Shown piece by piece: positions 11,376 through 64,000 of a stretch of 64,000 nt of DNA. The translations under genes were made by a program, and so were the position numbers. This stretch comes from Lantana camara (lineage: Eukaryota; Streptophyta; Magnoliopsida; Lamiales; Verbenaceae): assembly GCA_037501455.1 (NCBI GenBank), contig CM074856.1, positions 101,525,001 through 101,589,000 of the forward strand. Reading direction: 5' to 3'. Each line of letters starts with the position of its first letter. Position 1 is the first letter of the stretch. The notes beneath the pieces are model-generated. The model did no database searches and was not told the DNA's origin. It saw only the letters and a program-made list of their open reading frames with translations.

Positions 11376-11387
11376 TGGTATCAGAGC
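11376..11387 (+). other. Primer-binding site (initiator-Met tRNA) of the LARD
   Basis: TGGTATCAGAGC is the standard plant LTR-retrotransposon site that pairs with the 3' end of initiator methionine tRNA. It sits seven bases after the LTR end. Confidence 0.92.
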
Positions 11388-15555: not shown

Positions 15556-15575
15556 AGGACTTAAGGACAGGTCCT
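15556..15575 (+). other. Pre-PPT hairpin of the LARD
   Basis: AGGACTTA-AGGA-CAGGTCCT pairs over seven positions with one G-T wobble; the closing pair next to the loop is lost. The loop AGGA is the same as in the other elements. Confidence 0.65.
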
Positions 15576-15579
15576 TCTG

Positions 15580-15592
15580 AAGGAGGGGAGAT
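15580..15592 (+). other. Polypurine tract of the LARD
   Basis: AAGGAGGGGAGAT directly precedes the TGTAACATCCC start of the right LTR. This is the expected place for the plus-strand primer in reverse transcription. Confidence 0.88.
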
Positions 15593-19852: not shown

Positions 19853-19888
<36 letters not shown>

Positions 19889-19962
19889 CATTTTATGACC
19901 TACCATAATATCGTTCAATTTCTGTTCCTTTATAAATGATACTGCCCTTTTTGACAATACTT

Positions 19963-20128: not shown

Positions 20129-21259
20129 TCTCCTACTAAATTATCTCAGTACTATGCTACCGTTTATCGGGTATCGTTAAATGGAAGCAAAATATATTTT
20201 CTTATTATGGGCCCAGTGGCCTTGCTAGAAGTTGTAGTCTAGGATGCATGGGCCGAGGTCTACTATTATACCAACCGCCAACTAGATCTTTGTGGTGGTC
20301 TAACTGGAGGTTAGTTATTCCACATCAAGTGACGGGAAAAGGTACGTCCCTCCCAAGTTCATGTATATCGTCACTAGGGGTAGCTCCCTGAGGTGACACC
20401 GAAGGAAGAAGGATGGTATCGTTGTATTTTGTTTTATTAAGTAACGACATCTTGATCAATGTCGTTACGAATATTCTTGGTTTTTAAGGAGTTAAGGTTG
20501 GAGAACACCTAGCTTGCGGGCACCGTATTATTTCACAAAAGGGGTTCATATTTTCTTAAAAAGTATAGCACATTATCCCCCTACCCCTTTATCTTCAAAT
20601 AAATATGAACCCAATATTGATATTGTTGTAGTATTTTCCTATTATCGGGTACTAACCATGGAGTTTCTTGGTTAATCCCACTATGGATACTGATTTCACA
20701 TTACTCTCAAAATTATTACTTCATTCTTATTCAATTACTATTAAAGATCATTTCGAATAAAAGTTTCTTAGTAAAAATCCTAAAGTTTCATAGTTTTACT
20801 CAACCACCCCTCACTTAGTCACTTTGACTAACCCCTCGCTCTTTTCAAATTCATGATTTCAGGTATTGCCATCGCTCATTAGCTGGTATCTTGAAGCATA
20901 GAGAGTCCATTATCTTGTGCATATTAGATCAGGTTTCTTAACTAAGCCAAGTTAGACTATAATCTTATATAGTTATTATATTACTCCAGTATCATACTCT
21001 TAGATCATGAACTACTTTAACCCTACGATATTGCTTCTAAGTTTTCATGAGTTTCAAATTATTCCAAATTCTTTTATTTACTGCCCCAAACATAAGCTGT
21101 TGTTTTAAATGTTTCAAATTTCACTGCCATGTTTTCATACTCTGATATCGTATAGCATCGTCCGTTCGTCGGCGTGCCTCTGAGGTGCTAGGTCCCACAT
21201 CCGTCTGGGAAGTGCGACGGTGCGGGATTGTAGCGTATTTGGGAGCGCTATAGCTAAGG

Positions 21260-21271
21260 TGGTATCAGAGC
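21260..21271 (+). other. Primer-binding site of gypsy II
   Basis: TGGTATCAGAGC lies seven bases after the 5' LTR end at 21252. It confirms the orientation. Confidence 0.9.
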
Positions 21272-23115
21272 ATCAGGTTGCCTCGGTATCCTTGGTGCTC
21301 TTTCTTGAAAATTCTAACTTTTCTAAAAATACATCATTTCAAAGTGCTTGTCAAAATTGATACCTTCAAGTTGTGAAAACCTTTTATTCCCATTTTCCTG
21401 TATGTTCACGTCTCGAGTCTTAGAATCACATCAAGATACCGACAAGGCCATTATAATTTCATGTTGTTCCAATGTGCATTTTATGTGCTAGTAATTCTAG
21501 CACTATACATGGGATTTGTTGTTTCTATGACAATTTGCGGATCATTCTTAATCCCATGCATTATATCTCCCTATGTGATTCTTGGTAAGAGTGGGCAACA
21601 TTGTTGGAGGAAATGGGACCCTGGATCTCACAAGTAACTAGAAGTACGGTACATGTTTCTAACATGTCAGTTGTGGTCCTATGACCCTGACCTCATGCAC
21701 TCATTCATTATATCATTTTATGTGTGCTTATATGTTTCCTTTGGATAATTTATCATACAAACTTTGAAGTAAATTCCCTTTTGGAATTTGCCTCATTACG
21801 GATCGGTTATAAATGCTACTCTTACCAGGATGGTAATCATCGAATCCGACCCCACTACCCATGTCAAGATGAGGTATCATACTAGGAAGGGATGAGAAGT
21901 TGGAAATTAGAATCTATAAGGTCATTTTAGAAAGGAATTAGTGATACGTCGTCTATCTTTTAAAAGGCCAACAAATCACTTCGAATCAGAAAGGTGGAGA
22001 CGATACTGAATTTAGGTCATTTCGAGCAACACCAGAAAGGGTGACTCAGTGGAGCATTACAATGCTGAAGTAATGACATATTGAAGTGATTGGATCAAGG
22101 TTTAGCTGCTTTAACACTTTCTTGTAGAAAACCCTCATGAGAGACACCACTGGTTTAACTGTTTTCCCCACAACATCTACTAGACACTGGATGGCCATAT
22201 CAAACATCTCTAAATAGCACTGGCTACTTTGCTGGATCATAAGCCAAGTGCTACGATCAAGGAATACGTATTTTGACAGGCAAGTTATTACAGAAGGGTT
22301 GTTGAAAATTTTTAGGAATAGCTACACTCAAGGACTGGAAGTTAAAAGGTCAATGAAGTAGTAGAAAGATTTCCAAGTACTGCAGCAAAGACTGATTGCC
22401 ATAGCAGTGCTAAACCTGCCTAAATAAAAGATGGTTGCGGTTTACACTGATGCCTCTAAATAAGGGTCAAGGTAGGTATTGGTAATTGGGGTAAAAGTTA
22501 TGCTCCAAGGAAACCTAAGTCCCTTTATAAGGAAAAGGGTGACAATGGAATATTGGGAATTTGGAAGAAGGTTGCAACCATCGTTAATCCCGACATGGTA
22601 AATGGATCAGATCACAAAGAGTTTAATGGTATATGAGTCATCATTGAAAGGGTGATAAACTCAACATGCCTATTGTCGGTTAAGACTTCAGATAAGGAAA
22701 TCAAAGCCACATCATTGTTTTAAAGAAATATTCGGGAGATGTTGGGTGCCAAGTTTTAAGAAATCGTCAGAATGATAAGTAGTTAATGTGGATGAGTAAG
22801 AATCTGAAGAACGAGGAGTTAACCAAGGGAGTACAGTTTCCCTTAAAGATGTTAGGACACATTGAACTTCGTACTTTGCGAGTACTCTTCTAGAGAATCT
22901 CAAGTTTAACAGTGGAAGAAATACCGCTGGAATTAAACTTGACTGAGAATTTAAACCGGTAAAGGAAAATTCCCTAGTCAATGTCTTTTGGAAAAAAATA
23001 AAAATAAAACTGAGGAAGCCAGGAGAAAAACGAACGGAACTAAGGAAAGCACTACCCAAGTTATGCCTGGACAATAAGAGAATCTGAGGACAAATTCTTT
23101 TTAAGGGGGGAGGGT
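21272..23115 (+). pseudogene. Gypsy II internal region, shrunken and decayed
   Basis: Only 1.84 kb separates the primer-binding site from the 3' LTR, against 6.2 kb in gypsy III, so most of gag-pol is deleted. The clear remnant is RNase H near 22370-22540: the translated piece VYTDASK at about 22440 matches the same place in gypsy III (51582), with a stop directly after. No other Gag or Pol segment is certain. The region ends with a hairpin and a purine tract TTAAGGGGGGAGGGT. Confidence 0.75.
23079..23098 (+). other. Pre-PPT hairpin of gypsy II
   Basis: AGAATCTG-AGGA-CAAATTCT has the same layout as gypsy III with one mismatched pair. It sits immediately upstream of the polypurine tract at 23099-23115. 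Confidence 0.65.
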
Positions 23116-23379
23116 TGTAACAGCCCTAAACAGGGTCTAGTTGGAATTGGTAAACCTTGAAATAAAGTGAAAACATTTATATAATTTGATCCATCAAATG
23201 TTCTTCATGCATCACATTTCTATATGTTTTAACTTGTTCTTACGTATTGTAACAGCCCTAAACAGGGTCTAGTTGGAATTGGTAAACCTTGAAATAAAGT
23301 GAAAACATTTATATAATTTGATCCGTCAAATGTTCTTCATGCATCACATTTCTATGTGTTTTAACTTGTTCTTACGTGC
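23116..23379. repeat. 132-bp tandem duplication at the LTR start
   Basis: TGTAACAGCCCTAAACAGGG occurs at 23116 and again at 23248, with nearly identical DNA following. The second copy runs on into the unique LTR. The duplicated unit includes the LTR terminus itself. Confidence 0.9.
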
Positions 23380-24451
23380 TATTGTGTGACTTTGGGAGAG
23401 ATCTTATTTAAAATCCTAGATCACTATTCTTTTCCCGAGTCTTCATTCCCTCAATAAAATCATAAAACCTCAAATCTATATCTCTTGAATATCATAATTT
23501 ACATCTCTTGTCCTAAAATCATATCCGAAAATTTTAGGTCAAAAGTTACAATTTATCTCTATTGTCATTGTTCATCCACCAAGCCATTTTCTCTTATCTC
23601 ACTTATAGAACCTTAGAAGCCTACATTTTCTATTTCTTATACATGGTTTTTATACCCGAAACTCTTTATAAAAATTGTTGATCAAAATTACCATTATGTC
23701 CCTCGATCACTATTCATTCCATAAAATTAGGAATTTACTTGGAACGCTTTTTCCTATCAAATATTATAGTCAAAATGATCCTTGAATTATTTTATAAATT
23801 TTCTTATTCATACCAAAACGTAATTCCCACCGTAGCTTATTTCATAAATATTTTTCTTTTTAAAATTTATTATTTTATTATCAACATTTAGCTTTCATTT
23901 AATATCCGAAATTATACTTGAAACGTTTCTTGAATTTTTCTCTAACTATGATAATTTTCTCAATCTTTAAACTTCCTCATAGCTTTGTTTATATAATTTA
24001 TCATGATTTTCTTAATCTCTAACGTTTACAACTTTCAAACGAAAGACCTAAACGTCACACATTTATAATCATAAGAAAGCTTATTTTTCACTCATTCTTT
24101 CATTATATTTACCACTTCAAGTTCTCGTCACTCGGCTCTTAAATAAATTTTATATTATTTTATATTTATTTTAATTATTATGACATCATTCATGACATCA
24201 CTTTCCTAAAATAACCTTTCCAAAAATAGAAAGTTTATATGAATGAATTTAATTCTTCCACATTTCTTAACAAAATTCCATACATTTGTGTGAGTTAGGA
24301 AATTCCACATTTCTACATAATTTCTCCAAACAATTGTGTAAATTAGAAATTCCCACATTTCGTACATAGATTCCACACATTTGTGTGATGTAGAGATTTC
24401 CACATCTCTTGCATACTCTTAGAAATTGCTATAAGGTCCCTCATTACTACC

Positions 24452-24459
24452 TATAAATA
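24452..24459 (+). promoter_or_regulatory. TATA box of gypsy II LTR
   Basis: TATAAATA lies in CTACCTATAAATACCCTTG, followed about 60-100 bp on by a CT- and CA-rich stretch typical of a plant start region. The 5' LTR has lost this part. Confidence 0.6.
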
Positions 24460-25368
24460 CCCTTGAAGAGACCCATTTCTAACTCACAAATTCCCTCAAT
24501 TCCTACACACAAAACTCTCTCTTCTCTCCCCTCAACCTCACACCAAAACCCCCCCCAAAAATCTCTCAATGTTAGTTTATTTTATATTTAATTTATGCTT
24601 TAATTTATGTTTTATTTATATTATGCAATTTAATTTATATTTTATATGCTTTATATTATGTTTAGAAATTTATGATAGGAGATTTTATTTTAGGAATTTA
24701 TATTTCACTAATTAAAGTAGGAATTTAATTTATAAAATGCATTGCTATTATATGAATTTATCTAAATATGTGTTCATATATTCATGATTATATTCTTGAA
24801 TATTAGAAGAAATGCATGCTTAGGAAATTTAATTAAGAATTATTTTTCATGAAAAGTTTATATATATTGCTACATTATGTCTCAAATCTTATGTTATGAA
24901 TGTGAACATGATCTAACATGTCTAATATGTTCTATGAATATTCAAATAGACTGAAGAAAATGTTCTTGATGTTCTTGAAGTAGTGTGTGTACCGTGTCCC
25001 TAGTGTGTGTAAGTGTGTGTTTGATTTTGTATTTAAAGTCTTTAATCCCCTAAGGTTAAATAGTAACCGTTTTTCAATAGTAACTTTGACTTTTAATTTC
25101 AAATGAAGACTTTGACTCATAAAGTCTTGTAAAGATTTCAAATATTAATATAAAATAATCTTTTAAAAATTTTAGAAAGCACTTTTATCTAGAATTTCCA
25201 AAAATAGGGGATTAAAGTCTCGTGAATCATTTAAACGTTTCATATTTCAAATATCGTTTTAGGATTCAAAAACATTCAACGTTTCAAACATTAAAGGATT
25301 AGGATTTCTATGTTATAAGAAATTCAAATCTTGATTTTTATTAAACTAAAATAGGAATTTCAAATAGA

Positions 25369-25373
25369 AATAC
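25369..25373. repeat. Target-site duplication AATAC, left copy
   Basis: Matches AATAC at 33646-33650. The gypsy II LTR reads through if the insert is removed. Confidence 0.95.
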
Positions 25374-28177
25374 TGTAACACCCCGGAGCGGAGGGCGCCA
25401 CATCCCCCGCACCATAGTCCAACACGGGTATCGAAAGGGGAACTCCATCCCCGCATCGAACCATGGCGAACGGGTGACAAACAAAAATCAACTCTAGGCT
25501 AGGCGGTCTAGACCCTGAACAGAGCGCGCGAAAGTTAAATCAGAAGTGCGGAAGCAACAGGATCACAAAACAAACCAATTACAGATATAAAAGCTCAGAA
25601 AGAGATATACATATTTCAACAAGCTATGCCCACCTTGGGCTAAAGAAATAATCAAAGCTTCAGATTACAAAACATAACTTATACTTATTTATACATAGTA
25701 CCAAAGCAGGAAAGTAAATATGTAATGCAAGGACTCTACAAAGACTCGAACAACTCCCAAGACTCGAAAGACAACTGCCGCCTAGCCAGACTCCCAACCG
25801 GGCACCTGCAAAGCTCAAAACAAAGGGGAAAAAGAGAAGAAGCAACGAGGGTCAGTCCTAGAGACTGGTGAGGGGGCTAACACACGCACACATACGTATA
25901 CATAAGAGCCAAGCATATACAAATCGGAAATGTTCATGAATCCGGAGTGGTTTTTACATTCCAAAAGGTGTTAACACGTGATACTATATATACGAAGAAA
26001 GAGTTAGGACCCCAAAGGTCAAAATCTAACAAGTTTTACAAATTAGGAGTCCACCCCGTTTCATAAACCGTATCGGATACATAAGCATAAAGCAAACCAT
26101 ATCGGATACAAAACATAAACGGAAACATGGCGAGAACGAGTTCTCACGCACACTTACTCAGATTAAAGCAAAACTCATAAAACAATCCCACCTTTACACC
26201 ATTGGGGAAGAGAGGTGCCCCTCTCGATTCCCACCACGGAACAGAACGGATGAACCGGGGGATCCCGCCCGATTCCTTCGACGGCCATGCCAAAATGCGC
26301 TCCGTCGGCATAGGAGAACTAAGCCTCCCGTTGGTGGAGAAGTGCACAGGGGTCGTAACCGGCGACCCCGATGGTCGTCCCGGGTCTCCCTTACCCACAA
26401 TCTCCGGGGCCCAAACAGATCACAAAACTCACACACACATCTCACAAAACGGATACTTATCACAAAAGCTTTCTCTTGTCAAAACTTAACACGTACACAC
26501 ACCAACCCTTTTTGAAAACGAATAAACAAAACATAGCTTATATACATATAAAAGCCTTTTCAATGGATTTCATAGCAAGTGGGCCAATTCCCGCAAAATA
26601 CATATCAAACACTTATTTATACATATATATAGTTCGCATGCGGGCTTAAATTACAATTAGAGTTGTAGGTCATAATATCTAAAAAGGAAAGAAACCTCAC
26701 CTCTGGGAAGCAACGGGAGCAAAAGAAGCAAACGAACGTCTAGAAGACCACCTCGTCAACCACGGAACGAACCTAAAGGCAAACAAAGGCAAAGGACAAC
26801 CTTAGACTCAATATGAACCACATTGACGCTCGGCACATGAATATGTATGCTTATGATGCAAATGATATGAAATGTATTCACATTAAGGCCATTTATGAGC
26901 ATTCAAAGTATAATCAAACATATATCATAAACGAGGCAAGAATAAACATCAAGAAACAACGGAAAGGAAATAAACGAACGAAACTAGAATTCCTAGGTGA
27001 CACGCCCGTGTCACCGAAACAAGGCAAGCCGAGACACGCCCGTGTCTCGGTACAGAAAAGCGAAAACGAACTCAAAAGGTGACACGCCCGTGCCACCTAC
27101 GAAGGGCAAACCGTGACACGTCCGTGTCACGATACAGAAAACGCAGGCAGCTCTAAAGAAACTCAGCAACTCCAAAACAAAAACCCAACCTCCCAAACCA
27201 CAACTACCAAGCAAGGAAAAGAGATAAATGCTAAGAAACAAGTCCTTGAAGCATACTATCAACAACAAATCTCAAAGAAACAAGAAAGGAGCAAGAATCA
27301 ATCCAAAACTTCCGACACTTACTATTCACATGCTTGCTAGAACTCAAGAATCAACCAATGAATCCAACTCAAATCCACATATAATAGAGAAGAGAGAGTG
27401 TAGATTACAATCATAAACTTACCTTTCAAATTAGAGAAGCTTTGGATGTGATTTGAGCTCAAAATCATCAAGAATGGCCAAGGGTTTCTTCCTTCTCTTC
27501 TTGGAGCTGAAGTTGCTGCACTTTCCTTTCTTTTTCTTGGGTGTGGGACGAAATGGGGGAGTAGGAGAGAGTGAGGGATGGTTAGATACATATTAGTCAA
27601 GGTTAGAAGCTTAATTGGGGTTAAATAGGGTCCCACAAGTGAAGATTAGTCAACAAAAGGGTACTCTTAAGCACAAGGGCTCGTTCCGGTCGAAAAACGG
27701 GGAATCAAATGGGCTTAGCAAAATATGAATCCTGATTCTTTGTCTTGATTTCTTCGTTACGAGTCCAACGCACCTTCCGGAATTCGAATCCGAATTCCCG
27801 AGCTCAAGTTACGCCTTCCGGAACACAAGGTGCGCTAAAGCTCGTTAGGCCCTTATGTCCCTAAAACATAAAACGGTTTTCAAAACCGTATCAAACGGAC
27901 TCAAAAACAAGTAACGAACACAAAGACACATACATAACACATATAAGTCACGCATAGCACGTAGTCACAAAAATCGAAAACGAAAACGAATACAAACGAA
28001 GCAAGAACGAAACAAAGAGAACAAATACGTACAAATAAGTCACATAAGGTCAAATACATTCAAGTAATTCAAATATATCACATAAAAGAATAATAGACAC
28101 ATAATTAATCAATTAAAAGCACACATAGCTCACCCGTGAAGGCGTACCTGGAAAGGCCGGACGAGCGGGATGTTACA
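25374..28177 (-). mobile_element. Gag-only element, 3' LTR (left copy)
   Basis: It runs from TGTAACACCCCGGAGC to GAGCGGGATGTTACA on the plus strand. Read on the minus strand: donor-like AAAG|GTAAGT (donor 27422), palindrome array (27131-26996), a 72-bp block (26772-26701) between TTTGCCTTTAG and GTGAGG, TTTGGGCCCC (26415-26406), CTGAC (25855-25851), a long pyrimidine tract, and TTTGCAG ending at 25806. The short reading frames in it mirror those in the right copy and carry no known domain. Confidence 0.92.
26996..27131. repeat. Array of four ACACGCCCGTGT palindromes
   Basis: Palindromes at 26996-27015, 27029-27050, 27077-27098 and 27112-27131 share the core ACACG(C/T)CCGTGT. Arms differ but stay complementary: GGTGACACG/CGTGTCACC, CCGAGACACG/CGTGTCTCGG, CGTGACACG/CGTGTCACG. 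The third has one mismatch. The right LTR has the same array at 32464-32599 with one base changed. Confidence 0.9.
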
Positions 28178-28191
28178 AACTCCCCTCCTTC
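28178..28191 (-). other. Polypurine tract of the gag-only element
   Basis: On the minus strand GAAGGAGGGGAGTT precedes the TGTAACATCCC LTR start. It is almost the same as in the LARD. Confidence 0.88.
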
Positions 28192-28194
28192 AAA

Positions 28195-28214
28195 AGGACC
28201 TGTCCTCAGGTCCT
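28195..28214 (-). other. Pre-PPT hairpin of the gag-only element
   Basis: On the minus strand AGGACCTG-AGGA-CAGGTCCT forms a perfect 8-bp stem with a 4-base loop. There is no pol reading frame here, so conservation is not due to coding. Confidence 0.75.
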
Positions 28215-29618
28215 AAGCGAGACCTTTGAGGGCACTAGAGCGATCCCAACTCCACGCTTCCGCTACGCTACTCTGATCCAAAAGTTGTAACTCCTCGGGA
28301 CATTGCTCCCTTAATTAGAAATGAGGAAGACTTCTCGTGTCCCGATCACTCGGTGGTACTCACCAAATCCGAGTGAATCCCCTTACTTTAGCAAACTTTG
28401 GTTGCTCCCACTTCTGATTAACATTCAAAAGTAGTTGGGGAAAACTACCGGTTCTTGGTGTTCGGTCTTCTACCGAAAGCACTTTAGACATTGCTACACT
28501 AAGTCTACAATGCCTCTTCTTGTGCCGACACTCTTACCGGTTCTTCAAGTCTCGTACCATGAGTGGAATTAGTCTCGTGACTAAGCACTTCTTGAGACAT
28601 AGGCTCCAATCCTCCGTAGCAGCGCACAACCGAAGTCTTCCTTAGTACCTCGATCGTAACGGAGAAGTTTGAGTATCCTCGTGTAATCAAGGTAACTCCC
28701 TTCAAAAGCCTTATCCACTCGAACCCTGCCTCTTCCTTGTCCTTCATGTCATGGGGCGACACTTGAGACTTAATCTGTGAGGCAATTCTCGGTTCCTCTA
28801 CCAAAATGCGTAGTCGACCATACCCTTGTTGAAACCACACTCAGCTAAGACCACAGAACACTGAAGAAGGACAAACGACTCCCCGAAGCAAGCTAGAAGG
28901 GTATTTATCTCTCACTGTTAACCTGTGCAGCTCACGGTAATATTCTCATCCTAAATCCCGCCTTCTTCTTAGAGGGGACTAAGATACTCCACAAAGAAGT
29001 ATTCACAAGGATGAAATTACCTTCTAAGAGCTCGTCAACTACGACTTGACTCCAACAACCTCGCTAGAATCCACCGAAAGAGTAACTCCAAACACAAAAT
29101 AATTCCGGGATAAAGATCACGACAACCTCGATGTCCTAATTAGGTGGAAACGAATTCCATCTTCAAAGAAACACCAAAGGTGGCTTACTTCGACCTTTGT
29201 CTCCTTAAGCTTGGCTCGGCCTCTGAGTTAACTCAAAGGAAAGCCACGAAGCTTATCGCACCGTCCCGGAATTACCAACCACTACTACAAAGGGTATCAA
29301 CGGGCTAGCCTTCCATCTAACACCCGGAGATACTGTTAAGCCCCGAATGGACGTCCTAAAAGCAACCACCCACGCCTATGGTAACACCGTTACCCTGACA
29401 AAACTAGGCGCCTTCAAGAAAAACCACCGGAAAAGAACCAACCACCGAACGAGCTCGGCCCTCGCAGCTCACCAAACACACGACACTCTCCTCCCCAAAC
29501 TCTCTCCAAAGAGAGAGGCAACACAAAAGAGAAAGGAAAAGAGAAAACATAAGTAAGCAAGCAAGTAATAACAAAACACGCAAGCACTGAAACAACAAGA
29601 AAAGGAAAGTAATACCAA
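28215..29618 (-). mobile_element. Gag-only element, non-coding 3' internal part
   Basis: About 1.4 kb between gag and the hairpin. A 111-codon minus-strand frame (28505-28840) has no motif I recognise. No Pol signature is seen in any frame, so pol appears to have been replaced or eroded beyond recognition rather than lightly mutated. Confidence 0.65.
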
Positions 29619-30619
29619 TTAAATAAAATGCATGTATGTAGTGCCATGAATGCTTGGTGTACCTTTCACCATGGCGGTAGTGTCGATCTTGACAACCTGT
29701 TCTTCCTCTTCCGTCATATTCACTTGGATTGGGCTTGGAGTCTTGGAATCATGGCTCTTTGTAATCCTTGGATTCCTAGTCTTCGGGCAACTGCTCACCT
29801 TATGTCGCGGTTCCCCACACTTGTAACATCTCCCAAGTTTCTTTCGGCAAACTTCTTCGGTGTGATTAGGGCCTTGACAATAAGAGCATTGAATCATCTC
29901 CAATGGAAGAGGTATCGGATTAATCTTTGGTGGTTGAAGTTTCTTCTTCTTGATGTAGTCGACCTCTTGAAGTTCTTGGGTTTCCTCTCGGAACATAGGC
30001 CTCTTATTTGAGTTTAAGCTTGATCCTGGATTATATCCCTCCTTAGAAATGTGAAACTTCACCTCTTGCTTATTCATTTCATCTTGAACCACTCTTCTAA
30101 CTTCCTCGGACCATTTATGTACCGGTGAGCTTTGGAAAGCTTGTTGAATCTCGTCTCTACGCCTTTGTATATATTCCCGGACCTTAGGGCAATCTTGGTT
30201 AGCTCTCGAGCTTTCTAGTTCCATCATAAGATCATCCATCATCTTCACTTCTTGCTCAAGATCTAGGAATTCTTGGAGTCTTCTAATTAATTCATTGGGA
30301 GGGATATACTTGTAGCAAAATTCTCGGATAATTTCTCCCAATGGAACTCTTTCCCTGACTTCTTTAGATGTGATCTTATTTCCTTGAACCATTTTGAAGC
30401 TTCACCTTGTAGTAAGCGGGAAGTGTGTCTTACTTTCTCTTGTGAGGTTCCCGAACAATTTCCCCAAATCCACAATACCACGGATAGCCACTCCTCTGCA
30501 TTAACACTATCGCCTCCAAACCACTTCGGTGGATTAAAGCCCTCAAACTTCTTTGAGACCGAAGAAACTTGTTTCTCTTATTTTCCTTTTGATGAAATAT
30601 GTTGGTATGAAAAACTCAT
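29619..30619 (-). pseudogene. gag: Gag of the gag-only element, one stop and one frameshift
   Basis: Reading starts ATG at 30619 (MSFSYQHISSKGK), then a stop at about 30580-30578. It continues as FEGFNPPKWFGGDSVNAEEW and VRHTSRLLQGEASKWFKEI, the plant gypsy retrotransposon Gag domain. A one-base shift near 30318 (AATTTTGC) moves to the frame YKYIPPNELIRRLQEFLDLE. The remaining 257-codon frame ends with two CCHC knuckles, CSYCQGPNHTEEVC and CYKCGEPRHKVSSC, which would bind genomic RNA. Gag builds the particle. Here it is broken although the insertion is young, so movement did not depend on this copy. Confidence 0.9.
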
Positions 30620-30821
30620 CCTGAGATAAGAGAAATGATTCCAAAATATCGATGCATGCAGGGTTTAGTACATGTTCATGTGAACTATTAACTTAATTAA
30701 ACCAAATAATTCAAATAATTCACATAAAAGATGAGAATGAATGCAAACAATCATATAATCCTAAGCCGAACGACCTAGACAAACCCGACATGACGCTAGA
30801 GCTCCGGTTTTGCAACCTAGA

Positions 30822-30833
30822 GCTCTGATACCA
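30822..30833 (-). other. Primer-binding site of the gag-only element
   Basis: GCTCTGATACCA on the plus strand is TGGTATCAGAGC on the minus strand, eight bases from the right LTR. It proves minus orientation. Confidence 0.93.
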
Positions 30834-30841
30834 CTTACAGA

Positions 30842-33645
30842 TGTAACACCACGGAGCGGAGGGCGCCACATCCCCCGCACCATAGTCCAACACGGGTATC
30901 GAAAGGGGAACTCCATCCCCGCATCGAACCATGGCGAACGGGTGACAAACAAAAATCAACTCTAGGCTAGGCGGTCTAGACCCTGAACAGAGCGCGCGAA
31001 AGTTAAATCAGAAGTGCGGAAGCAACAGGATCACAAAACAAACCAATTACAGATATAAAAGCTCAGAAAGAGATATACATATTTCAACAAGCTATGCCCA
31101 CCTTGGGCTAAAGAAATAATCAAAGCTTCAGATTACAAAACATAACTTATACTTATTTATACATAGTACCAAAGCAGGAAAGTAAATATGTAATGCAAGG
31201 ACTCTACAAAGACTCGAACAACTCCCAAGACTCGAAAGACAACTGCCGCCTAGCCAGACTCCCAACCGGGCACCTGCAAAGCTCAAAACAAAGGGGAAAA
31301 AGAGAAGAAGCAACGAGGGTCAGTCCTAGAGACTGGTGAGGGGGCTAACACACGCACACATACGTATACATAAGAGCCAAGCATATACAAATCGGAAATG
31401 TTCATGAATCCGGAGTGGTTTTTACATTCCAAAAGGTGTTAACACGTGATACTATATATACGAAGAAAGAGTTAGGACCCCAAAGGTCAAAATCTAACAA
31501 GTTTTACAAATTAGGAGTCCACCCCGTTTCATAAACCGTATCGGATACATAAGCATAAAGCAAACCATATCGGATACAAAACATAAACGGAAACATGGCG
31601 AGAACGAGTTCTCATGCACACTTACTCAGATTAAAGCAAAACTCATAAAACAATCCCACCTTTACACCATTGGGGAAGAGAGGTGCCCCTCTCGATTCCC
31701 ACCACGGAACAGAACGGATGAACCGGGGGATCCCGCCCGATTCCTTCGACGGCCATGCCAAAATGCGCTCCGTCGGCATAGGAGAACTAAGCCTCCCGTT
31801 GGTGGAGAAGTGCACAGGGGTCGTAACCGGCGACCCCGATGGTCGTCCCGGGTCTCCCTTACCCACAATCTCCGGGGCCCAAACAGATCACAAAACTCAC
31901 ACACACATCTCACAAAACGGATACTTATCACAAAAGCTTTCTCTTGTCAAAACTTAACACGTACACACACCAACCCTTTTTGAAAACGAATAAACAAAAC
32001 ATAGCTTATATACATATAAAAGCCTTTTCAATGGATTTCATAGCAAGTGGGCCAATTCCCGCAAAATACATATCAAACACTTATTTATACATATATATAG
32101 TTCGCATGCGGGCTTAAATTACAATTAGAGTTGTAGGTCATAATATCTAAAAAGGAAAGAAACCTCACCTCTGGGAAGCAACGGGAGCAAAAGAAGCAAA
32201 CGAACGTCTAGAAGACCACCTCGTCAACCACGGAACGAACCTAAAGGCAAACAAAGGCAAAGGACAACCTTAGACTCAATATGAACCACATTGACGCTCG
32301 GCACATGAATATGTATGCTTATGATGCAAATGATATGAAATGTATTCACATTAAGGCCATTTATGAGCATTCAAAGTATAATCAAACATATATCATAAAC
32401 GAGGCAAGAATAAACATCAAGAAACAACGGAAAGGAAATAAACGAACGAAACTAGAATTCCTGGGTGACACGCCCGTGTCACCGAAACAAGGCAAGCCGA
32501 GACACGCCCGTGTCTCGGTACAGAAAAGCGAAAACGAACTCAAAAGGTGACACGCCCGTGCCACCTACGAAGGGCAAACCGTGACACGCCCGTGTCACGA
32601 TACAGAAAACGCAGGCAGCTCTAAAGAAACTCAGCAACTCCAAAACAAAAACCCAACCTCCCAAACCACAACTACCAAGCAAGGAAAAGAGATAAATGCT
32701 AAGAAACAAGTCCTTGAAGCATACTATCAACAACAAATCTCAAAGAAACAAGAAAGGAGCAAGAATCAATCCAAAACTTCCAACACTTACTATTCACATG
32801 CTTGCTAGAACTCAAGAATCAACCAATGAATCCAACTCAAATCCACATATAATAGAGAAGAGAGAGTGTAGATTACAATCATAAACTTACCTTTCAAATT
32901 AGAGAAGCTTTGGATGTGATTTGAGCTCAAAATCATCAAGAATGGCCAAGGATTTCTTCCTTCTCTTCTTGGAGCTGAAGTTGCTGCACTTTCCTTTCTT
33001 TTTCTTGGGTGTGGGACGAAATGGGGGAGTAGGAGAGAGTGAGGGAGGGTTAGATACATATTAGTCAAGGTTAGAAGCTTAATTGGGGTTAAATAGGGTC
33101 CCACAAGTGAAGATTAGTCAACAAAAGGGTACTCTTAAGCACAAGGGCTCGTTCCGGTCGAAAAACAGGGAATCAAATGGGCTTAGCAAAATATGAATCC
33201 TGATTCTTTGTCTTGATTTCTTCGTTACGAGTCCAACGCACCTTCCGGAATTCGAATCCGAATTCCCGAGCTCAAGTTACGCCTTCCGGAACACAAGGTG
33301 CGCTAAAGCTCGTTAGGCCCTTATGTCCCTAAAACATAAAACGGTTTACAAAACCGTATCAAACGGACTCAAAAACAAGTAACGAACACAAAGACACATA
33401 CATAACACATATAAGTCACGCATAGCACGTAGTCACAAAAATCGAAAACGAAAACGAATACAAACGAAGCAAGAACGAAACAAAGAGAACAAATACGTAC
33501 AAATAAGTCACATAAGGTCAAATACATTCAAGTAATTCAAATATATCACATAAAAGAATAATAGACACATAATTAATCAATTAAAAGCACACATAGCTCA
33601 CCCGTGAAGGCGTACCTGGAAAGGCCGGACGAGCGGGATGTTACA
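30842..33645 (-). mobile_element. Gag-only element, 5' LTR (right copy)
   Basis: It has the same length and layout as the left copy, offset by exactly 5468 bp. Visible differences include TGTAACACCACGG against TGTAACACCCCGG at the end, and single changes in the palindrome array and near 33350. The change at the terminus alters the tenth base of the LTR end. Confidence 0.92.
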
Positions 33646-33650
33646 AATAC
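33646..33650. repeat. Target-site duplication AATAC, right copy
   Basis: Pairs with 25369-25373. Confidence 0.95.
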
Positions 33651-34334
33651 TCATTTAGGATTTTCAAATCAAATATTTCAAATATCATTTCCAAAATAAG
33701 ATTTCCTTATTAAAATATATGGACTTATTTTATAACATAAAAGCTTACTAAGATTCATAATTTAATAACCACTTGTTTTATAAGTCTTGTTTGAATGTTA
33801 AAGTTGTATTTTATCAGAAAATTATTATGTGATCTCATTTCATGTTATGACGTGTTTTATGATAACTTGTCTGTGTGAGTAGTTTTTGTTACGAAATAGA
33901 AACTTGTAGTTGATCACCACTCATAGGTGAAGATCTGGACGGACTAGGACTCCGGTATTATTACATAATAGCTGGTTACTGTAGGTGAGGTTAAACGTTT
34001 TCAACTGGGATCATGAGTATATATATATATATATATATGAAACATTTTATGACCTACCATAATCGTTCAATTTTTGTTCCTTTATAAATGATACTGCCCT
34101 TTTTGACAATACTTTGATATCAACTTATATTGTTCTAGTATACACAATCAATTATTTTAAAGTATTCATAACCTCTTGTCCTACACAATTAAAAGTATCT
34201 CCTGTTAAATTATCTCGGTACTATGCTACCGTTTATCGGGTATCGTTAAATGCAAGCACAATATATTTTCTTATTGTGGGCCCAGTGGTCTTGGTGGAAG
34301 TAGTAGTCTGGGAGGCATGGGCCGAGGTCTACTA

Positions 34335-44440: not shown

Positions 44441-45689
44441 GAACGCATTACTAGACAACCAAAGAGATGGTATGGTTTTCTCCACCAAACATCTCAAATG
44501 GATAATGATCCATTAACTTATGAGGAGGCACTGTTAGATTCAGACTCTGAACAGTGGAAAGAATCAATGAAATCCGAAATGGATTCCATGTACTCTAACC
44601 AAGTTTGGACCTTGGTTGATCCACCTGATGGGATCAGGGCCATAGGGTGTAAATGGATATATAAGCGCAAGCTTGCAGTAGATGGAAGTGTGGCAGCCTT
44701 TAAAGCAAGATTAGTTGCTAAGGGGTTTACTCAAAGACCAGGTGTAGACTTTGATAAAACCTTCTCCCCGGTTGCAATGCAAAAATCCATTAGGATCCTA
44801 CTGGCCATTGCGGCATATTATGACTATGAGATATGGCAAATGGATGTGAAAACTGCCTTTCTCAATGGAGAAGTTGACAAAGACATTTACATGGAGGAAC
44901 CCATGGGTTTCACATTCAGTGAGAGCGAGCAAAAGGTTTGCAAGCTTCAACGTTCAATCTACGGATTGAAACAAGCTTCTAGGAATTGGAACATTCGATT
45001 TGATGAAGCAGTCCAATCTTTTGGGTTTATTCAAAAATCCGAATGAGCCCTGCGTGTACAAGAAAGAATTGGAAGCCTCAGTTCAATTTCGGGTACTTTA
45101 TGTAGATGACATCCTCCTCATTGCGAATGCGAAGAATGATATGAAAGTAACAAAGTCTTGGTTATCGAACCAATTTGAGATGAAGGATCTTGGTGATGCA
45201 TCCTACATTCTCGATATAAAGATCTATCGAGATAGATCTTAGAGACTATTAGGATTATCACTGTCGGTTTACATAGATAAAGTACTAAAGAGATTTAGTA
45301 TGGAAGAATCCAAACGTGGAAAACTTCCAATGGGCCCGGGAACAGTTCTTTCGAAGAAGCTGTGTCCCAAGACTGAACTTGAGAAGTCCAGGATGTCCAA
45401 AATTCCTTATGCATCAGCTATAGGAAGCATAATGTATGCGATGCTATGTACTCGATCGGATGTGGCTTTTGCACTTAGTGTAACTAGTCGATTCCAATCT
45501 GACCCTGGTGAAGGTCACTGGACTGCTATAAAGAATATCCTTAAGTACTTACGAAGAACTAAGGATTTATTGCTAGTTTACGGAGGCCAGCAAGATCTTT
45601 TCATTAGAGGATACTGTGATGCAAGCTTTGCATCAGGCATGGATGACTTTAAATCCATGCCAGGATACATATTCTGCCTGAACGGCGGA
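44441..45689 (+). pseudogene. Copia II reverse transcriptase and truncated RNase H
   Basis: A long open part (44369-45046) has DNDPLTYEEALLDSDSEQW, GCKWIYKRKLAVDGS, QMDVKTAFLNGEVD and SIYGLKQASRNWNIRF. After a frameshift near 45040 the catalytic YVDDILLI follows (about 45099). A stop is at 45240, then PYASAIGSIMYAMLCTRSDV and the RNase H piece GYCDASFASGMDDFKSMPGY. It ends at FCLNGG (45689), where the next codons are gypsy LTR. About one third of RNase H is lost. Confidence 0.9.
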
Positions 45690-45696
45690 GTCGAGC
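45684..45696. other. Junction of copia II RNase H and gypsy III LTR
   Basis: Left of 45690 the sequence is copia coding DNA. From 45690 it follows the gypsy III 3' LTR from 55895. Only one to three bases could be shared, so the join is an illegitimate break rather than an insertion with target duplication. Confidence 0.8.
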
Positions 45697-47260
45697 ACTG
45701 GGATCCCCAGGGCACCGCGTAATCTGTCTACCTACCTTTTATTACTATTAGGTGAGGTGAAGTTAAAATGTTTCCAAATTGGAACCACGATTATACTATC
45801 GTATCATATGTTTTGAAATTCAAAGTTAAACCTCGTTTTGAACTATCCCTTTTATTGGGACATTCTTTTGAAAGGATCATTCATACTTTCATAGTATACC
45901 TTGATCAACAACACATGTTTTCCAAAGTTCTGCATTCTTGTTCAAAGACAGTTACATGTTCTGCATATGTTTTCAAACTACAGTGTCACATGTTTTACAG
46001 ACAGCATCACATGTTTTACAGACAACATCATATGTTTACAGACAGTTTCACATGTTATAGTTAGCACCCGGAGTGGTATTCTGGTCACTGCTAATCTTGA
46101 AATGCAAGCATACAGTTTACAGTTTGGGCCCGGTGGTTATGTGTGGAGGTGATGTTCGGGAGGTGTGCGCCAATGACATCACCAATACCTGCCGCCACAA
46201 TTAGACAATTGACACCGACTTTTAACGGGAGGTTTGTTAAGTCAGGACAATCTGTCTGGGAACAGACAGCAAATCTGTTCCCATTACATGTTTACAGGTC
46301 GCCTAGGGCTATCTACCCGAAGTGACAACCGGTGGAGGATGGTGCATGTTTGTATGTGTTAGTGGAGTATTGTTGACCTTGGTCTGATACTCTACTGTGT
46401 GTGGAGTTATTGTTGACCTCGGTCCGATACTCTACGAAATCATGTTTTCTAGAGTAAGGATGGAGAAGCCTAGCTTGCGGGCAAAATTATGTTTCATAAA
46501 GGATGGTTCATATTTGGAAAAGTTCACTTTAGCCTTATCCCGTTTTATGAAAGAACTATGAACCATCTACAGCATATGTGTGCGCGTGTGATAGCATTCA
46601 TGAAAAGAGTTTTGAAACTTATATTCTTTTATAGCATGGCATTCAAACAGTTTTATCAATCGAACTTGTTTCAAGTTCTTCTAACAATTTTGAACTACAC
46701 TTCAAGTTCTTTATCACTCAACACTTTCTTTAAAGTATTCCCTCACTTAGTCCTTTTGACTAATACCTTTCCTGTTTTCTTACCTCGTGGTTTTAGGTCT
46801 TGCAGCCGCAGTCTAGAGGTATCTTGAAGCTCTAGATTGTCACTTTTGTTTCTGTCAGGACTTAGTATTACTTTCTGTTGTGTCCTGCATATGTTTTATG
46901 GCTGCATCACTTCATGTTTCTGAATACTTGAGTATCTTTGTTATACTCTTTCTGCTACTCTGGTACCGATATCTTGAACTCTACTATAACGGAACTTATA
47001 TGTGAATATGTTATATGTTCTGACATGCCAAGTCTCTCTTACACGATCAATATGTTCTTGCTTGTTACATGCCATCACGCACATGTTTTGAAATGTTTTA
47101 AAATACTCTGATTTTCGGATGTATAGCCACATCATTATACATGTATAGTTCTGAGATAGATAGCCATTCGCTGGAGTATTTCTTGAGTAGTGGCTCACAC
47201 CACAGTGTGGGGGTTGAGACGCCGCTCTCCCCCTGTTCCAGTACGGGTGGGGGCGTTACA
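45690..47260 (+). mobile_element. Gypsy III 5' LTR, right part only
   Basis: It matches 55895-57523 closely and ends GGGTGGGGGCGTTACA. It holds a donor-like ATTAG|GTGAGG (donor 45752), TTTGGGCCCG at 46123, and CTAAT (46760) with pyrimidines and TTTTAG (46796) as a 3' acceptor-like module. U3 and the promoter are missing. Confidence 0.9.
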
Positions 47261-47268
47261 GCCTGAGG

Positions 47269-47280
47269 TGGTATCAGAGC
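47269..47280 (+). other. Primer-binding site of gypsy III
   Basis: TGGTATCAGAGC lies eight bases after the LTR end at 47260. Confidence 0.94.
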
Positions 47281-53475: not shown

Positions 53476-53495
53476 AGAATCTGAGGACAGATTCT
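53476..53495 (+). other. Pre-PPT hairpin of gypsy III
   Basis: AGAATCTG-AGGA-CAGATTCT is a perfect 8-bp stem with loop AGGA. It overlaps the last pol codons, and the polypurine tract AAGGAGGGG follows at about 53500. Confidence 0.75.
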
Positions 53496-53499
53496 CTTT

Positions 53500-53512
53500 A
53501 AGGAGGGGTGAT
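53500..53512 (+). other. Polypurine tract of gypsy III
   Basis: AAGGAGGGGTGAT precedes the LTR, whose first bases are worn (TATAACAGCCC for TGTAACAGCCC). Confidence 0.8.
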
Positions 53513-54586
53513 TATAACAGCCCAAAACAGGGTCTGGATGAAAACGGTAAGCTAAGGGCATTGGTAAAGCATTTATAGACCGTGATCCAACTTTTTGAAC
53601 CTTCATGCATTGCATTATTACATGAACTTTGTGCTCGTATATGATCTGACATGTTTTAAGGGGGAATTCTTGACCTTTGATACAATTTACTATTCATAAC
53701 CCGAGCCTACCTTGTTCATATGGCTACTCGAACCCTAGAGGTTCACCACACATGTTTCCCAATCGGTTGAACTTGTTTCCCAAGCTCAGAGAGTCTTTCT
53801 TAAACGATAAGGGTATTTTTGGAACTTACCGACCAAAGTTACTATTCATCTAAAAATGAGCTTTTGATTCTGATATCTTTTCCTACCCAAGTTTACAGTC
53901 AAATCGACCCTTGAGTCGAGACGAGTCTTTTGAAATCATTCTTGACATGGAAATCTATTTTGAGCATCGTTTTTATTGAAAATGTTTGAGAAAACCCTAG
54001 TTCACTATTCCTTATACGAACGATTTTCATTCGGAAAATGTTTTCTCTTCGGAATTACACTACTTGAGCTATTTCAAGATTTTTAAGTTGTTTTACAACT
54101 CTTGATTCAAACCCTAGCTTGAAAATTTGATGCGTGCGTCTGTACGTAAGAATTCACTATTCATTCTACATTTTCAACTTTTTAACGGTAAAATGTTTTA
54201 TAGTCAATATTGGACTCAAAACGCTTCTCGATTTATTTCTTTAATTTTGGAAACAATCCACACTTGCAAATCATTCTAGAAAGTCGTTTTTCACTTGTGT
54301 TGAGTTTCGAGCTCAAAACTTTTATTCACTAAAACTAATGTATCTTTCAAATGGTAAATCCGATTTCGACGTATGAATATGCGTTTCGAAGCTAATTTTT
54401 ACCCGAACGGAATGGTTATACTTCCCACCACTTACCTTCACGTTTTGGCAGTGAAATTACCGAAATACCCCCCAGCAGTCCCATTTTAGCTTTAACATGC
54501 CTAAAGCTTTCAAGAGATGCTAACCCACTTTTGCTCTCATACCCTTACCTCAATTTTATTTCCAAAGTGAGGGGCTTCTCTTCAAC

Positions 54587-55545: not shown

Positions 55546-58500
55546 AAAATGAAATAAAGCCTTTGCTTTCCTAATAGACATTTGCACATAGGGTTTCCAT
55601 ATCCAGGGTCAAAAATGTGTTTTCAAAATGTGTTTTCTTTCGTAGACTTGTTTCTTAACCTAAGGTTTGCGATAGGTTTCATCATTTGATTATAGTAAGA
55701 TCATAGTTCCACGTTAAGAATAACTCACTTTAACGTATACCTTTTTGTGTTACCTTTCTTGAACACCTTAAATGGTATTACTCTCTTGTGTTACATGTTC
55801 TTTGTTCATTGTTTCAAGCATTTCATATGCATCATGGTTAGTAGTGGGTCTTAGTTCTTAAGCTCACTCTAGTACACCACCTACAGGAGTTAAAGTCGAG
55901 CACTGAGATCCCCAGGGCACCGTGTAATCTGTCTGCCTACCTTTTGTTACTATTAGGTGAGGTGAAGTTAAAATGTTTCCAAACTGGAACCACGATTATA
56001 CTATCGTATCATATGTTTTGAAATTCAAAGTTAAACCTCATTTTGAACTATCCCTTTTATTGGGATATTCTTTTGAAAGGATCATTCATACTTTCATAGT
56101 ATACCTTGATCAACAGCACATGTTTTCCAAAGTTCTGCATTCTTGTTCAAAGACAGTTACATGTTCTGCATATGTTTTCAAAGTACAGTTTCACATGTTT
56201 TACACATAGCATCACATGTTTTACAGACAACGTCACATGTTTTACAGACAGCATCATATGTTTACAGACAACATCATATGTTTACAGGCAGTTTCACATG
56301 TTATAGTTAGCACCTGGAGTGGTACTCTAGTCACTGCTAATCTTGAAATACAAGCATACAGTTTACATTTTGGGCCCGGCGGTTATGTGTGGAGGTGATG
56401 TACGGGAGGTGTGCGCCAACGACATCACCAATACCGACCGCCACAAATAGACAATTGACACCGACTTCTAACAGGAGGTTTGTTAAGTCAGAACAATCTG
56501 TCTGGGAACGGACAACAAATCTGTTCCCATTACATGTTTACAGGTCGCCTAGGGCTAGCTACCCGAAGTGACAACCGGTGGAGGATGGTGCATGTTTGTA
56601 TGTATTAGTGGAGTATTGTTGACCTTGGTCTGATACTCTACTGTGTGTGGAGTTATTGTTGACCTCGGTCCGATACTTTACGAAATCATGTTTTCTGGAG
56701 TAAGGATGAAGAAGCCTAGCTTGTGGGCAAAATTCTATTTCATAAAGGATGGTTTATATTTGGAAAAGTTCACTTTACCCTTATCCCGTTTTATGAAAGA
56801 ACTATGAACCATCTATAGCATATGTGTGCGCGTGTGATAGCATTCATGAAAAGAGTTTTGAAACTCATATTCTTTTACAGCATTGCATTCAAACAGTTTT
56901 ATCAATCGAACTTGTTTCAAGTTCTTCTAACAGTTTTGAACTACACCTCAAGTTCTTTATCACTCAGCACTTTCTTTGAAGTATTCCCTCACTTAGTCCT
57001 TTTTACTAATACCTTTCCCGTTTTCTTGCCTCGTGGTTTTAGGTCTTGCAGCCGCAGTCTAGAGGTATCTTGAAGCTCTAGATTGTCACTTTTGTTTCTG
57101 TCAGGACTTAGTATTACTTTCTGTTGTGTCCTGCATATGTTTTATGGCTGCATCACTTCATGTTTCTGAATACTTGAGTATCTTTGTTATACTCTTTCTG
57201 CTACTCTGCTACCGATATCTTGAACTCTACTATATCGGTACTTATATGTGAATATGTTATATGTTCTGACATGCCAAGTCTCTCTTACACGATCAATATG
57301 TTCTTGCTTGTTACATGCCATCACGCACATGTTTTGAAAAGTTTTAAAATACTCTGATTTTCCGCTACATAGCCACATCGTTATACATGTATGGTTCTGA
57401 GATAGATAGCCGTTCGCTGGAGTATTTCTTGAGTAGTGGCTCACACCATTACTTGAGAGGTGATTCAGTGCGGGGGTTGAGACGCCGCTCTCCTCATGTT
57501 CCAGTACGGGTGGGGGCGTTACAATGGCGTATGCTTGAAGTTGGATGAATGAGAATTCCGGTAAAGTGACGACACAAAATTGAAACGGTTATATCTCACT
57601 AACCAGAAAAGATATTGAGGTTATTCCAATAGGAGAATACTCTAGAATCAATGTAGTTTATACAGTTCGAATTTCAGTTCAATCGGAGCACCTTTGAGGG
57701 AGTAAAGGCGGCGACAAAGTTACACTGGAAAACAATCGTGGCCGCAAAGGCAAGTTAGTAGCTCCTTCTGCATGGTGGTCGCGGCCGTGACACTTTTATA
57801 GGCAAAAACTGTAACACCCCGTACGATGGGATGCCACATCCCCGCACCTAGACCCAATCCACACGTGAGATGGAAGCCCACACATGAACCGAGCATAGGC
57901 GAACAGGAGACACACACACGCACGAAAGCTAGGCGGGATGCAGAAACCACGACCAAAACAAAATACAAAGTGCGCGAATGCGGAAGCTTAACATGCCAAT
58001 CATAAAATTTCAATCACACAAACAACGGGTTCAACTAGCATAAATCCCTAATCCCGAAAATCAAACATAAACATAAATCATAATTCACAAATCCAACGGG
58101 TTCATACTAGTCCCAGAAGCCTGTCCCGCATATTCACATAAGTTAAACAACAAATTCATACACATAAACATGATCATAACTTACAAACTTAAACATTTCA
58201 AATGCAAAATGCAAAAAGACTCCAAACTTATACAGAGACTCGAAACCAAAACAGACTTCACGATCGACACAAGCTGCCTAGCTCGAACCCAAAGCAAACC
58301 TGCAAAGCTAAAAACATGGGGAGGGAGGAGGGTCTGTCCAAAGACTGAGTGAGGGGTTACACACGGACACTTACATATATTTATAGAGCATAGCACGTAG
58401 TTGAAGCAATGTTCGTGAACCCGAGGTTAGTTTTTACATGCCAAAATATTTTCCCGTGATAGTATACATATAGGGAGACTTATCAAACCAACCAAACAAA

Positions 58501-62078: not shown

Positions 62079-64000
62079 AACCTATCCCCCTTAACAAGGA
62101 CATGTCTTCAGGTCCACTGCCTCGAGTTCTGGACTCTAAGCAAAACCTCTCCGTGTTTATCCCAAACGGGGTTCGCGATATCCCAACAGGAATTAGTTCG
62201 GAGAAGGGTCTTCTAGCACCACGGGCTTCAAGGCTCACTACAAGCTGCTCACGAACTTGATTCGACCATGAGTAGTCCGGACGTCTCGCACGATAGGAGG
62301 GTAAAAAACGAGATTCAACTCCCACCGTTTGAATCCATACAAACCATCCCACAACTCGGTATCACAAGTGGAGTAGTTAATGAACTTCCACCACTCGTTC
62401 TCCAATCCCAAATGGGCCTTCTATCATCACTTCAACTTCACGGTTTGAAGTTGGTTTCTTGAACAACCACTAGTTTCTAAAAATAGTCTCTAAAGGCCTG
62501 CTGAAAGGTTGGTTGCACAGCATGACCCTCGTCTCACCGTGGGTCAAAGGCACTCACTTACTCCAAAAGCAACTAACAAGCAAATGCATACAATAGTAAT
62601 TAAGGGAATGTGTGATGCACGTGATATGCATGTTTGAATATACCGTTCACCGTTGTTTAGAAGCCTTCCATCGTAGTGGTACGATTTTACACTTGACTCT
62701 TTGTTGGAGATTCTTCTACCCATATTGTCATGTCTCGGAGTGCCCGATGTGTAGATACTTCAATAACTACTCAATCTTCACTCCACCATCAAACTCTCTT
62801 TCCTTAGTAATACTACGGTCGAAGTTCCAGTCTGGAATGTGCACTTAACCTTAACCCAATCAACTCGTTCTTTCCCACGATAACATTCTACCTTCTCGGA
62901 TGCTCGAGTTACGCTTTAGCCGCTCGAATTCTAGCCTTCAAGTGTTAGTATCATCCCCGGTTCATCATGGAAAGATGATTGATGAATTGGTAACTCCTCT
63001 TGTTAATGTTGTGATCTATCCTAGATTTTCCACTTCTATCGCTCAGTTGAATTGACTCTCACTTTGTCAACGTGGAATATGATGATTGGATCTACTTTTA
63101 TTATCCGATACCCTCCTTACTAATTCTTGAAATTCCTTCACGGTCCTATCGTCTCCAAGGCATGAGACACATTATACCGTACACGATATTTTCAACCTTG
63201 GAAGATTTAGTTTGTAAGTCCCATAGTAAGAAATCAATGAGGTTAATTCTTCAACCAAAGTTACTATCGATCATTCTTTTACCCAGTCTTATAGTTCCAA
63301 TTCCCAAGCATTCCTTGAATTCATATCGTCATCTCTTGAAGAACTTATCCTTCCCAATATCATTCTCGAAGCTTCATTCACCTCGATCTTGAAATTCCAT
63401 TGAATGCTAGACTTTCCATTTCATCTCTTGCCAATTGCGTAGAATCCGGTTACTTGTTGCTTGTTGCATTTTCCATTGTTCCTACTAGAGTTAGTTCATT
63501 CGAGTACCATCCGGAATTTAGTCATCTCCCAATCAGATCTCCATCTTAAGAATTCATATCCCCCAACAATTAAGGTCGTTACATCGCTTATCAATTGAAC
63601 ATTTTCAATTCCCCAATTTAGCTTTCTCGTTACCGGTGGTTCTATCCAAGCTACGTGTCCGGTGATCTCGCTCATATTCACTTTGAATTGTTAGGGACAA
63701 CAATCTACTTCCTTCATTCCAAAATCTAGTTCTACTTTCCCTAGCCTCGGTATTTCCTCTTTTCTTTTGATAAACACTTTGGAAATCCAAAATTCATTCT
63801 TAGCTCGGTTCGAATATAGCTAGGTTGAGATAGCATTTGATGAGTGAGGTGGAGAAAATTTCCTATCAAGTAGACACTAAACAATGCGTGTCGGGTTAAG
63901 ATGCCAATGCACGTACCATTTAAATAGGCAACACTTTAGACCAATCATATCTGTTAGGGATGCACGCACATATGCAAATAAGGGAGAATATATAATTTTA
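62079..64000 (-). mobile_element. Internal DNA of the reverse element IV, partial
   Basis: It begins (plus strand) CCTATCCCCCTTAAC, the reverse of a polypurine tract, then a worn pre-PPT hairpin at 62098-62115. The rest, to the window end, shows only short frames without recognised motifs on either strand, so this looks like another non-coding or heavily decayed interior similar to that of the gag-only element. Confidence 0.6.
62098..62115 (-). other. Pre-PPT hairpin of element IV
   Basis: On the minus strand GGACCTG-AAGA-CATGTCC pairs with one mismatch and has loop AAGA for the usual AGGA. Confidence 0.55.

Follow-up and report, generated by a model that had tools for sequence, protein, structure and literature searches.

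The 64,000-nucleotide stretch of Lantana camara DNA analyzed here (contig CM074856.1, positions 101,525,001 to 101,589,000 of the forward strand; hereafter the window, in whose numbering all coordinates are given) contains five retrotransposons with long terminal repeats (LTRs), for which we retain the names of an earlier note on this DNA: gypsy elements II and III, a LARD, a gag-only element and element IV. In each, a short hairpin stands just 5' of the polypurine tract (PPT) and is followed by the PPT and the LTR start (0–3 mismatches to the PPT/LTR pattern). Direct reading confirmed the coordinates at which the earlier note had placed all five hairpins. The stem is perfect (8/8 pairs) in element III (53476..53495, plus strand; AGAATCTG-AGGA-CAGATTCT; PPT and linker 53500..53512, 3' LTR start 53513) and in the gag-only element (28195..28214, minus strand; AGGACCTG-AGGA-CAGGTCCT; PPT and linker 28178..28190, LTR start 28177). 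The other three of the five hairpins contain one mismatch: C/A in element II (23079..23098, plus strand; AGAATCTG-AGGA-CAAATTCT, 7/8 pairs; PPT and linker 23103..23115, 3' LTR start 23116), A/C at the closing pair of the LARD, which also has one G/U pair (15556..15575, plus strand; AGGACTTA-AGGA-CAGGTCCT, 7/8 pairs; PPT and linker 15580..15592, LTR start 15593), and C/U in element IV (62098..62115, minus strand; GGACCTG-AAGA-CATGTCC, 6/7 pairs; PPT and linker 62080..62092, LTR start 62079). The closing-pair mismatch of the LARD had gone unmentioned in the earlier note.

The five window copies amount to roughly two independent types of stem, GAATCTG and GGACCTG, among which the two coupled changes named earlier (A-U to G-C and U-A to C-G) are indeed present; the independence of stem types is supplied by a wider sample and not by these copies. 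We examined 83 PPT/LTR junctions, 79 from the 1.27-Gb Lantana camara genome and four from plant-like DNA in bacterial assemblies. A pattern for the PPT and LTR start, drawn without loop or stem, matched the genome 2615 + 2662 times, whereas its reversed control matched 5 + 4 times, and the genome was read in the 200 kb flanking the window and at 60 of 100 listed anchor sites, out of 5277 counted. The PPT and LTR expression gave 63 sites; two were dropped as non-LTR junctions (in L031 and at ~24.5 kb of the window, minus strand), two (L005 and L006) were added by hand, again making 63, and 20 further sites brought the total to 83, of which 82 had a core, scanned in the form G-[GAT]-[AG]-[CT] or AGAC at an allowed core-to-LTR distance of 24–33 nt. 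CRM, Reina, Galadriel and copia elements lie outside this sample. Four more hairpins, found by a covariance model or hairpin scan, do not enter the junction totals. Of these, L028 and L030 are fully paired; L031 and L033 each have a single mismatch, and L033 also has no recognisable LTR start.

Searching proteins with the C-terminal pol piece of element III gave 1609 relatives, the named ones among the best 120 being mostly plant, and bacterial genome assemblies scanned with an alignment of 43 relatives yielded five loci (L005–L009). These loci, filed as bacteria, are taken as plant contamination, and a protein filed under Salmonella enterica (P0078) likewise has the appearance of a plant-type retrotransposon. 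L008 and L009 have an identical hairpin, leaving four distinct outside loci, whose stems (AATCTCG/CGAGATT, ATTTGG/CCAAAT, GAAATTTTG/CAAAATTTC and GATTTCG/CGAAATC) differ from one another and from those of the window. The hairpin occurs in several families, as well as in contigs that come from other plants. Plasmid and phage scans gave no match; in viral contigs, two DNA patterns matched four, none with PPT/LTR context at the match, and two protein scans found no relative. Against Rfam, the window had 0 matches at gathering score; a search of L005–L009 with E allowed up to 1 gave a single sub-threshold match, far from the hairpin.

At least six of seven stem pairs (G/U included) were kept in 80 of the 83 junctions and all seven in 68 (76 and 64, respectively, of the 79 from the Lantana genome alone, where one site was coreless). 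Of controls with a shuffled 5' part, 2.5% reached six pairs and 0.2% reached seven. The three failing junctions were L058 (rearranged 5' side), L091 (unrelated 5' arm) and the second L026 site (coreless, expanded G-run); near 2340–2390 of L026 (minus strand), a degenerate hairpin was seen beside a greatly expanded PPT G-run. A count of maximal contiguous pairs in the fixed AGGA register gave only 0–2 pairs in II, LARD, IV and L005, as the count breaks off at a triloop or at a mismatch close to the loop, and a comparison of the longest stem anywhere, whose scan also counted contiguous pairs only, separated less well (best stem <7 in 9/63 sites).

The loops of the 82 sites with a core were AGGA (44), GGA (32), GGGA (2), GGG (2), AAGA (1) and AGTA (1), a distribution that follows partly from the construction of the core scan. 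They fall into two classes: class A has a tetraloop, mostly AGGA (48 sites), and class B a GGA or GGG triloop (34 sites; for example, GAACCTGG-GGA-CCAGGTTC). In common class-B stems, a G takes the place of class A's first loop A and pairs with an extra C on the other arm; G faced C at that position in 33/34 class-B sites. Among the 24 distinct class-A hairpins (decayed copies included), seven of eight pairs were changed on both sides, compared with 4.5 in shuffles (29/500 as high), with 39 compensated cells versus 10.1 (0/500) and a covariation score of 0.600 versus 0.219 (0/500). Moreover, sliding the partner by 1–3 columns lowered the paired cells from 87% to 20–46%. The compensatory change in the stem claimed by the earlier note was therefore confirmed in class A against both shuffled and slid controls. 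The 15 distinct class-B hairpins showed seven compensated cells versus 1.7 in shuffles (0/500); in a permutation without register re-optimisation, 33/20000 were at or above the value observed for class B, which makes this class the weaker evidence. When arms were swapped among 27 stem types with the register re-optimised, 4.96 of seven pairs formed, compared with 6.33 observed (0/5000); the gap was smaller than without re-optimisation, with the same outcome. Folding models of 180-nt contexts gave a median stem pair probability of 0.68, versus 0.01 for arm-swapped controls. The hairpin is a covarying structured element.

This structure, a 7–8 bp stem with a GGA-containing loop, has an almost constant position 5' of the PPT. 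The distance from the GGA core to the LTR was 26–29 nt in 52/52 unique sites (sd, standard deviation, 0.62), whereas that from the chromodomain-end motif, upstream of the PPT, to the core ranged over 20–44 nt (sd 3.6; 28 of the 52 unique sites, those with a readable motif), and since the former spacing is narrow and the latter wide, the hairpin keeps its position relative to the PPT/LTR junction. Within 264 kb (the window plus 200 kb of flank, both strands), there were 12 AGGA-loop hairpins with at least seven Watson-Crick pairs, and all 12 lay beside a PPT; 20 runs of first-order random sequence averaged 0.15 and reached 2 at most. A covariance model (44 positions, 15 sites) recovered all five elements of the window with E values under 1e-12 and had no match at E up to 1 in four unrelated contigs of the viral collection (L001–L004), a search that serves as a consistency check, 9/15 training rows being within the searched material. 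A second LTR start of the gag-only type, at about 61242 (minus strand) inside element IV's LTR, has no PPT before it and no such hairpin, as expected for a 5' or solo LTR, this being a single case. Because the stretch of element IV's LTR that matches the gag-only element begins at this other LTR start, it does not show that the two elements share an LTR.

The hairpin is independent of the reading frame. Relative to the chromodomain-end motif, its core stood in frames 0, 1 and 2 in 8, 11 and 9 of the 28 readable sites, a stop preceded or fell at the core in ten, and 13 had no stop in the printed frame up to the LTR start; in L022 and L052 the hairpin includes the stop codon, TGA. Homologous proteins (235, the best 120 of each of two overlapping searches) provided 116 usable tails, in which the motif was read in three frames: 74 were FEDEI-like, 13 FRGRN-like (named sources include Gossypium and Manihot) and six ISRTK-like; the 23 unassigned proteins include several that resemble the first reading in a variant form and others with a mis-placed tail. 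A nucleic-acid constraint predicts this three-frame pattern, and constraint on one protein tail does not. The earlier note's conclusion that coding cannot explain the hairpin thus holds, while its argument that three of the elements have no pol there is weaker than stated: by eye, the sequence preceding the hairpin in LARD-like and gag-only-like copies looks like that of copies with a readable chromodomain end (L041, L071), and may be a pol relic. The absence of pol in the LARD, gag-only element and element IV was judged from the list of open reading frames (ORFs) and from Pfam on nine ORFs.

These data point to a cis-acting replication element of Tekay/Del-like chromoviruses, which would be selected as a structure and kept by their non-autonomous derivatives, a reading that, on sequence comparison, we hold at a probability of roughly 0.7. 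We infer that the hairpin is selected for a function and that it acts in reverse transcription; non-autonomous derivatives would keep it because the same reverse transcriptase must copy them, and those without proteins probably also need it for copying. As a mechanism, we tentatively prefer a pause of the reverse transcriptase by which its RNase H is brought to the PPT/U3 boundary. Having copied U3 and then the PPT in making the minus strand, the enzyme would meet the hairpin, still folded, immediately 5' of the PPT; by stopping at the foot of the stem, it would keep the RNase H site near the PPT/U3 junction, which would help to cut the plus-strand primer at the correct base and so to define the LTR end. 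In HIV-1 reverse transcriptase, the RNase H site lies ~17–18 bp behind the polymerase site. Among the 38 unique fully paired sites, 21 have the uninterrupted stem foot at 17 nt before the LTR and 10 have it at 18 nt (the others at 12–15 or 19), and since 31/38 thus stand at 17 or 18 nt, RNase H would come to lie near the junction on pausing, a fit that holds only if the HIV-1 spacing applies to the element's enzyme. More doubtful, in our opinion, is the full extension of this idea, in which a hitherto unnamed covarying hairpin of a major plant lineage would serve as a structural ruler for an exact LTR-end cut, and non-autonomous elements would be mobilised in trans by keeping the hairpin, the PPT and the primer binding site (PBS). 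A role at the RNA 3' end, also proposed in the earlier note, looks unlikely: LTRs of about 2.8–4 kb lie 3' of the hairpin in the window elements, and the hairpin is probably not near the RNA 3' end.

Several observations weigh against the replication-element reading or its mechanism. The ruler match depends on counting the uninterrupted stem only, because stems extended through one mismatch spread over 12–20 nt from foot to LTR. In class B, further pair types were not unusual (5 versus 3.8 in shuffles, 75/500), which is weaker evidence than in class A. The shuffles leave the kinship of the rows in place; the arm-swap test and the outside-contig stems reduce this concern, and are no replacement for a tree-based test. 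Non-Watson-Crick cells comprised equal numbers of G/U and A/C (5 and 5 of 189), and therefore do not show which strand is selected, or whether RNA or DNA is. In the folding models only 8/25 stem types reached a probability of 0.8 and several were near zero (L008, 0.016). Finally, RNA structure at the lentiviral PPT has been argued to be unlikely to matter for priming, in which the PPT acts as a hybrid (PMC3616985); the pause model would avoid this argument.

Another function in replication, unlikely but deserving serious consideration, would be a packaging or dimerisation signal, in which a Gag zinc knuckle binds the exposed GGA loop or the hairpin pairs with another RNA site, non-autonomous RNAs keeping it in order to enter particles. 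Consistently with this, the loop is mostly AGGA or GGA, within the bias of the core scan noted above, while the stem sequence varies, and the LARD and gag-only element are 80.5% alike over about 217 bases surrounding the 5' LTR end. Such a signal does not, however, predict the narrow distance to the PPT/LTR junction, and the packaging and dimerisation sequences of Ty3, Ty1 and HIV-1 are placed at the 5' end in the literature; because that spacing is nearly fixed, we favour priming over packaging. The equal G/U and A/C counts, with no strand asymmetry, would also suit a palindrome acting at the DNA level, either extruded as a hairpin or bound by a protein, for example in ending plus-strand synthesis, in the recognition of ends by integrase or in binding a host factor. 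We regard this as improbable, given that a dyad-binding protein is expected to fix the stem sequence, whereas here stem bases vary and pairing and loop stay. Still less credible is an origin by mutation without selection, through template switching, quasi-palindrome correction or CpG transitions in both arms: two CpG transitions suffice for the G-C to A-U change of the closing pair between the similar sites L030:7800-7842 and L019:9239-9281 (minus strand), but many exchanges (U-A, C-G, G-C and A-U at one pair) are not CpG transitions, contigs of other plants show the hairpin in the same position, and within the 264 kb no AGGA hairpin of 7 bp or more was seen away from a PPT. Constraint on the pol C-terminus, with a FEDEI-like tail yielding complementary codons by coincidence, would agree with the hairpin of element III being in frame with the end of pol and with the FxDEI-type reading of 74/116 usable homolog tails, but is practically ruled out by one DNA motif being read in three frames and by its position after, or containing, a stop in 10/28 sites.

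The nearest published feature that we found is the inverted repeat at the PPT/3' LTR junction of Sireviruses (Ty1/copia), for which Bousios et al. (2010; PMC2829016) propose help in correct PPT primer formation and state that the left arm may lie in coding sequence, both of which are likenesses to the present hairpin. The same paper gives a mean of 28 bp for such repeats in Sireviruses and of 19 bp for those of other copia elements; for Ty1 it states that correct RNase H processing requires more than the PPT. In the Sirevirus repeat, the arms flank the PPT, which lies in the loop, with the right arm inside the LTR. Here, in contrast, both arms of ~7–8 bp lie 5' of the PPT around a small GGA-containing loop, in probable Ty3/gypsy chromoviruses and with covarying stems, and the placement of both arms 5' of the PPT led us to reject identity of this hairpin with a Sirevirus-type repeat, no search having been aimed at an additional repeat of that type. 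RNA structure has been mapped at the PPT in HIV-1/SIV and Ty3 (PMC3616985, PMC11381356), but there the PPT itself is partly paired, and the accessible portions of these papers describe no separate covarying upstream hairpin. Non-autonomous plant elements, LARDs and TRIMs, are said to conserve RNA structure (PMC7215508), but as whole-element folds, with no pre-PPT hairpin named in the portion available. A study of Beta vulgaris chromoviruses (PMC3605345) includes Tekay members with the chromodomain upstream of the PPT and aligns PPT and PBS, with no hairpin mentioned in the portion available. A literature search that could not reach supplements or most subscription papers turned up no account of this hairpin; it is so far unnamed, and we make no claim that it is unpublished.

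How LTR retrotransposons choose the PPT and define their LTR ends, and what non-autonomous elements must keep for mobilisation, are unsettled questions, for which a small, strongly covarying structure at nearly all sampled junctions is a directly testable candidate. The hairpin is probably present at many of the anchor sites counted in this genome. It also offers an annotation landmark 26–29 nt before the 3' LTR that is independent of coding sequence.

Regarding the remaining architecture of the window elements, a PBS 12-mer, which we take to match tRNAi-Met, stands at the start of the internal region in four of the five: element III (47269..47280, plus strand; TGGTATCAGAGC), the gag-only element (30822..30833, minus strand), and element II (21260..21271, plus strand) and the LARD (11376..11387, plus strand), both assigned by position. 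Repeat-pair comparison delimited the LTR pairs of the LARD (7788–11223 and 15589–19000) and gag-only element (25374–28179 and 30842–33647) and, in part, that of element III (45689–47260 and 55894–57523); the LTRs of the LARD and gag-only element are related (~73–74% over roughly 900 bases). The element III piece 53021–53419 matches Pfam SH3_Tf2-1 (E 4.6e-22), and no chromodomain was scored in III itself, while many homologs of this piece carry Chromo (PF00385). The gag-only element (25374–33647; LTRs 99.7% alike) appears inserted in the 3' LTR of element II (19140–34198), this LTR copy being interrupted at 25374 and 33642. Element II, with an internal region of only about 1.85 kb, is probably non-autonomous too, and its 3' LTR carries a 131-base tandem duplication (98%) at its very start (23115–23377). 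Direct tandem repeats of ~102 and ~204 bases were seen in the LARD at 14108–14518. By eye, the PPT G-run could pair with a CCC or CCCC near the LTR start, forming a second hairpin beside the first (53500–53525 and other LTR starts).
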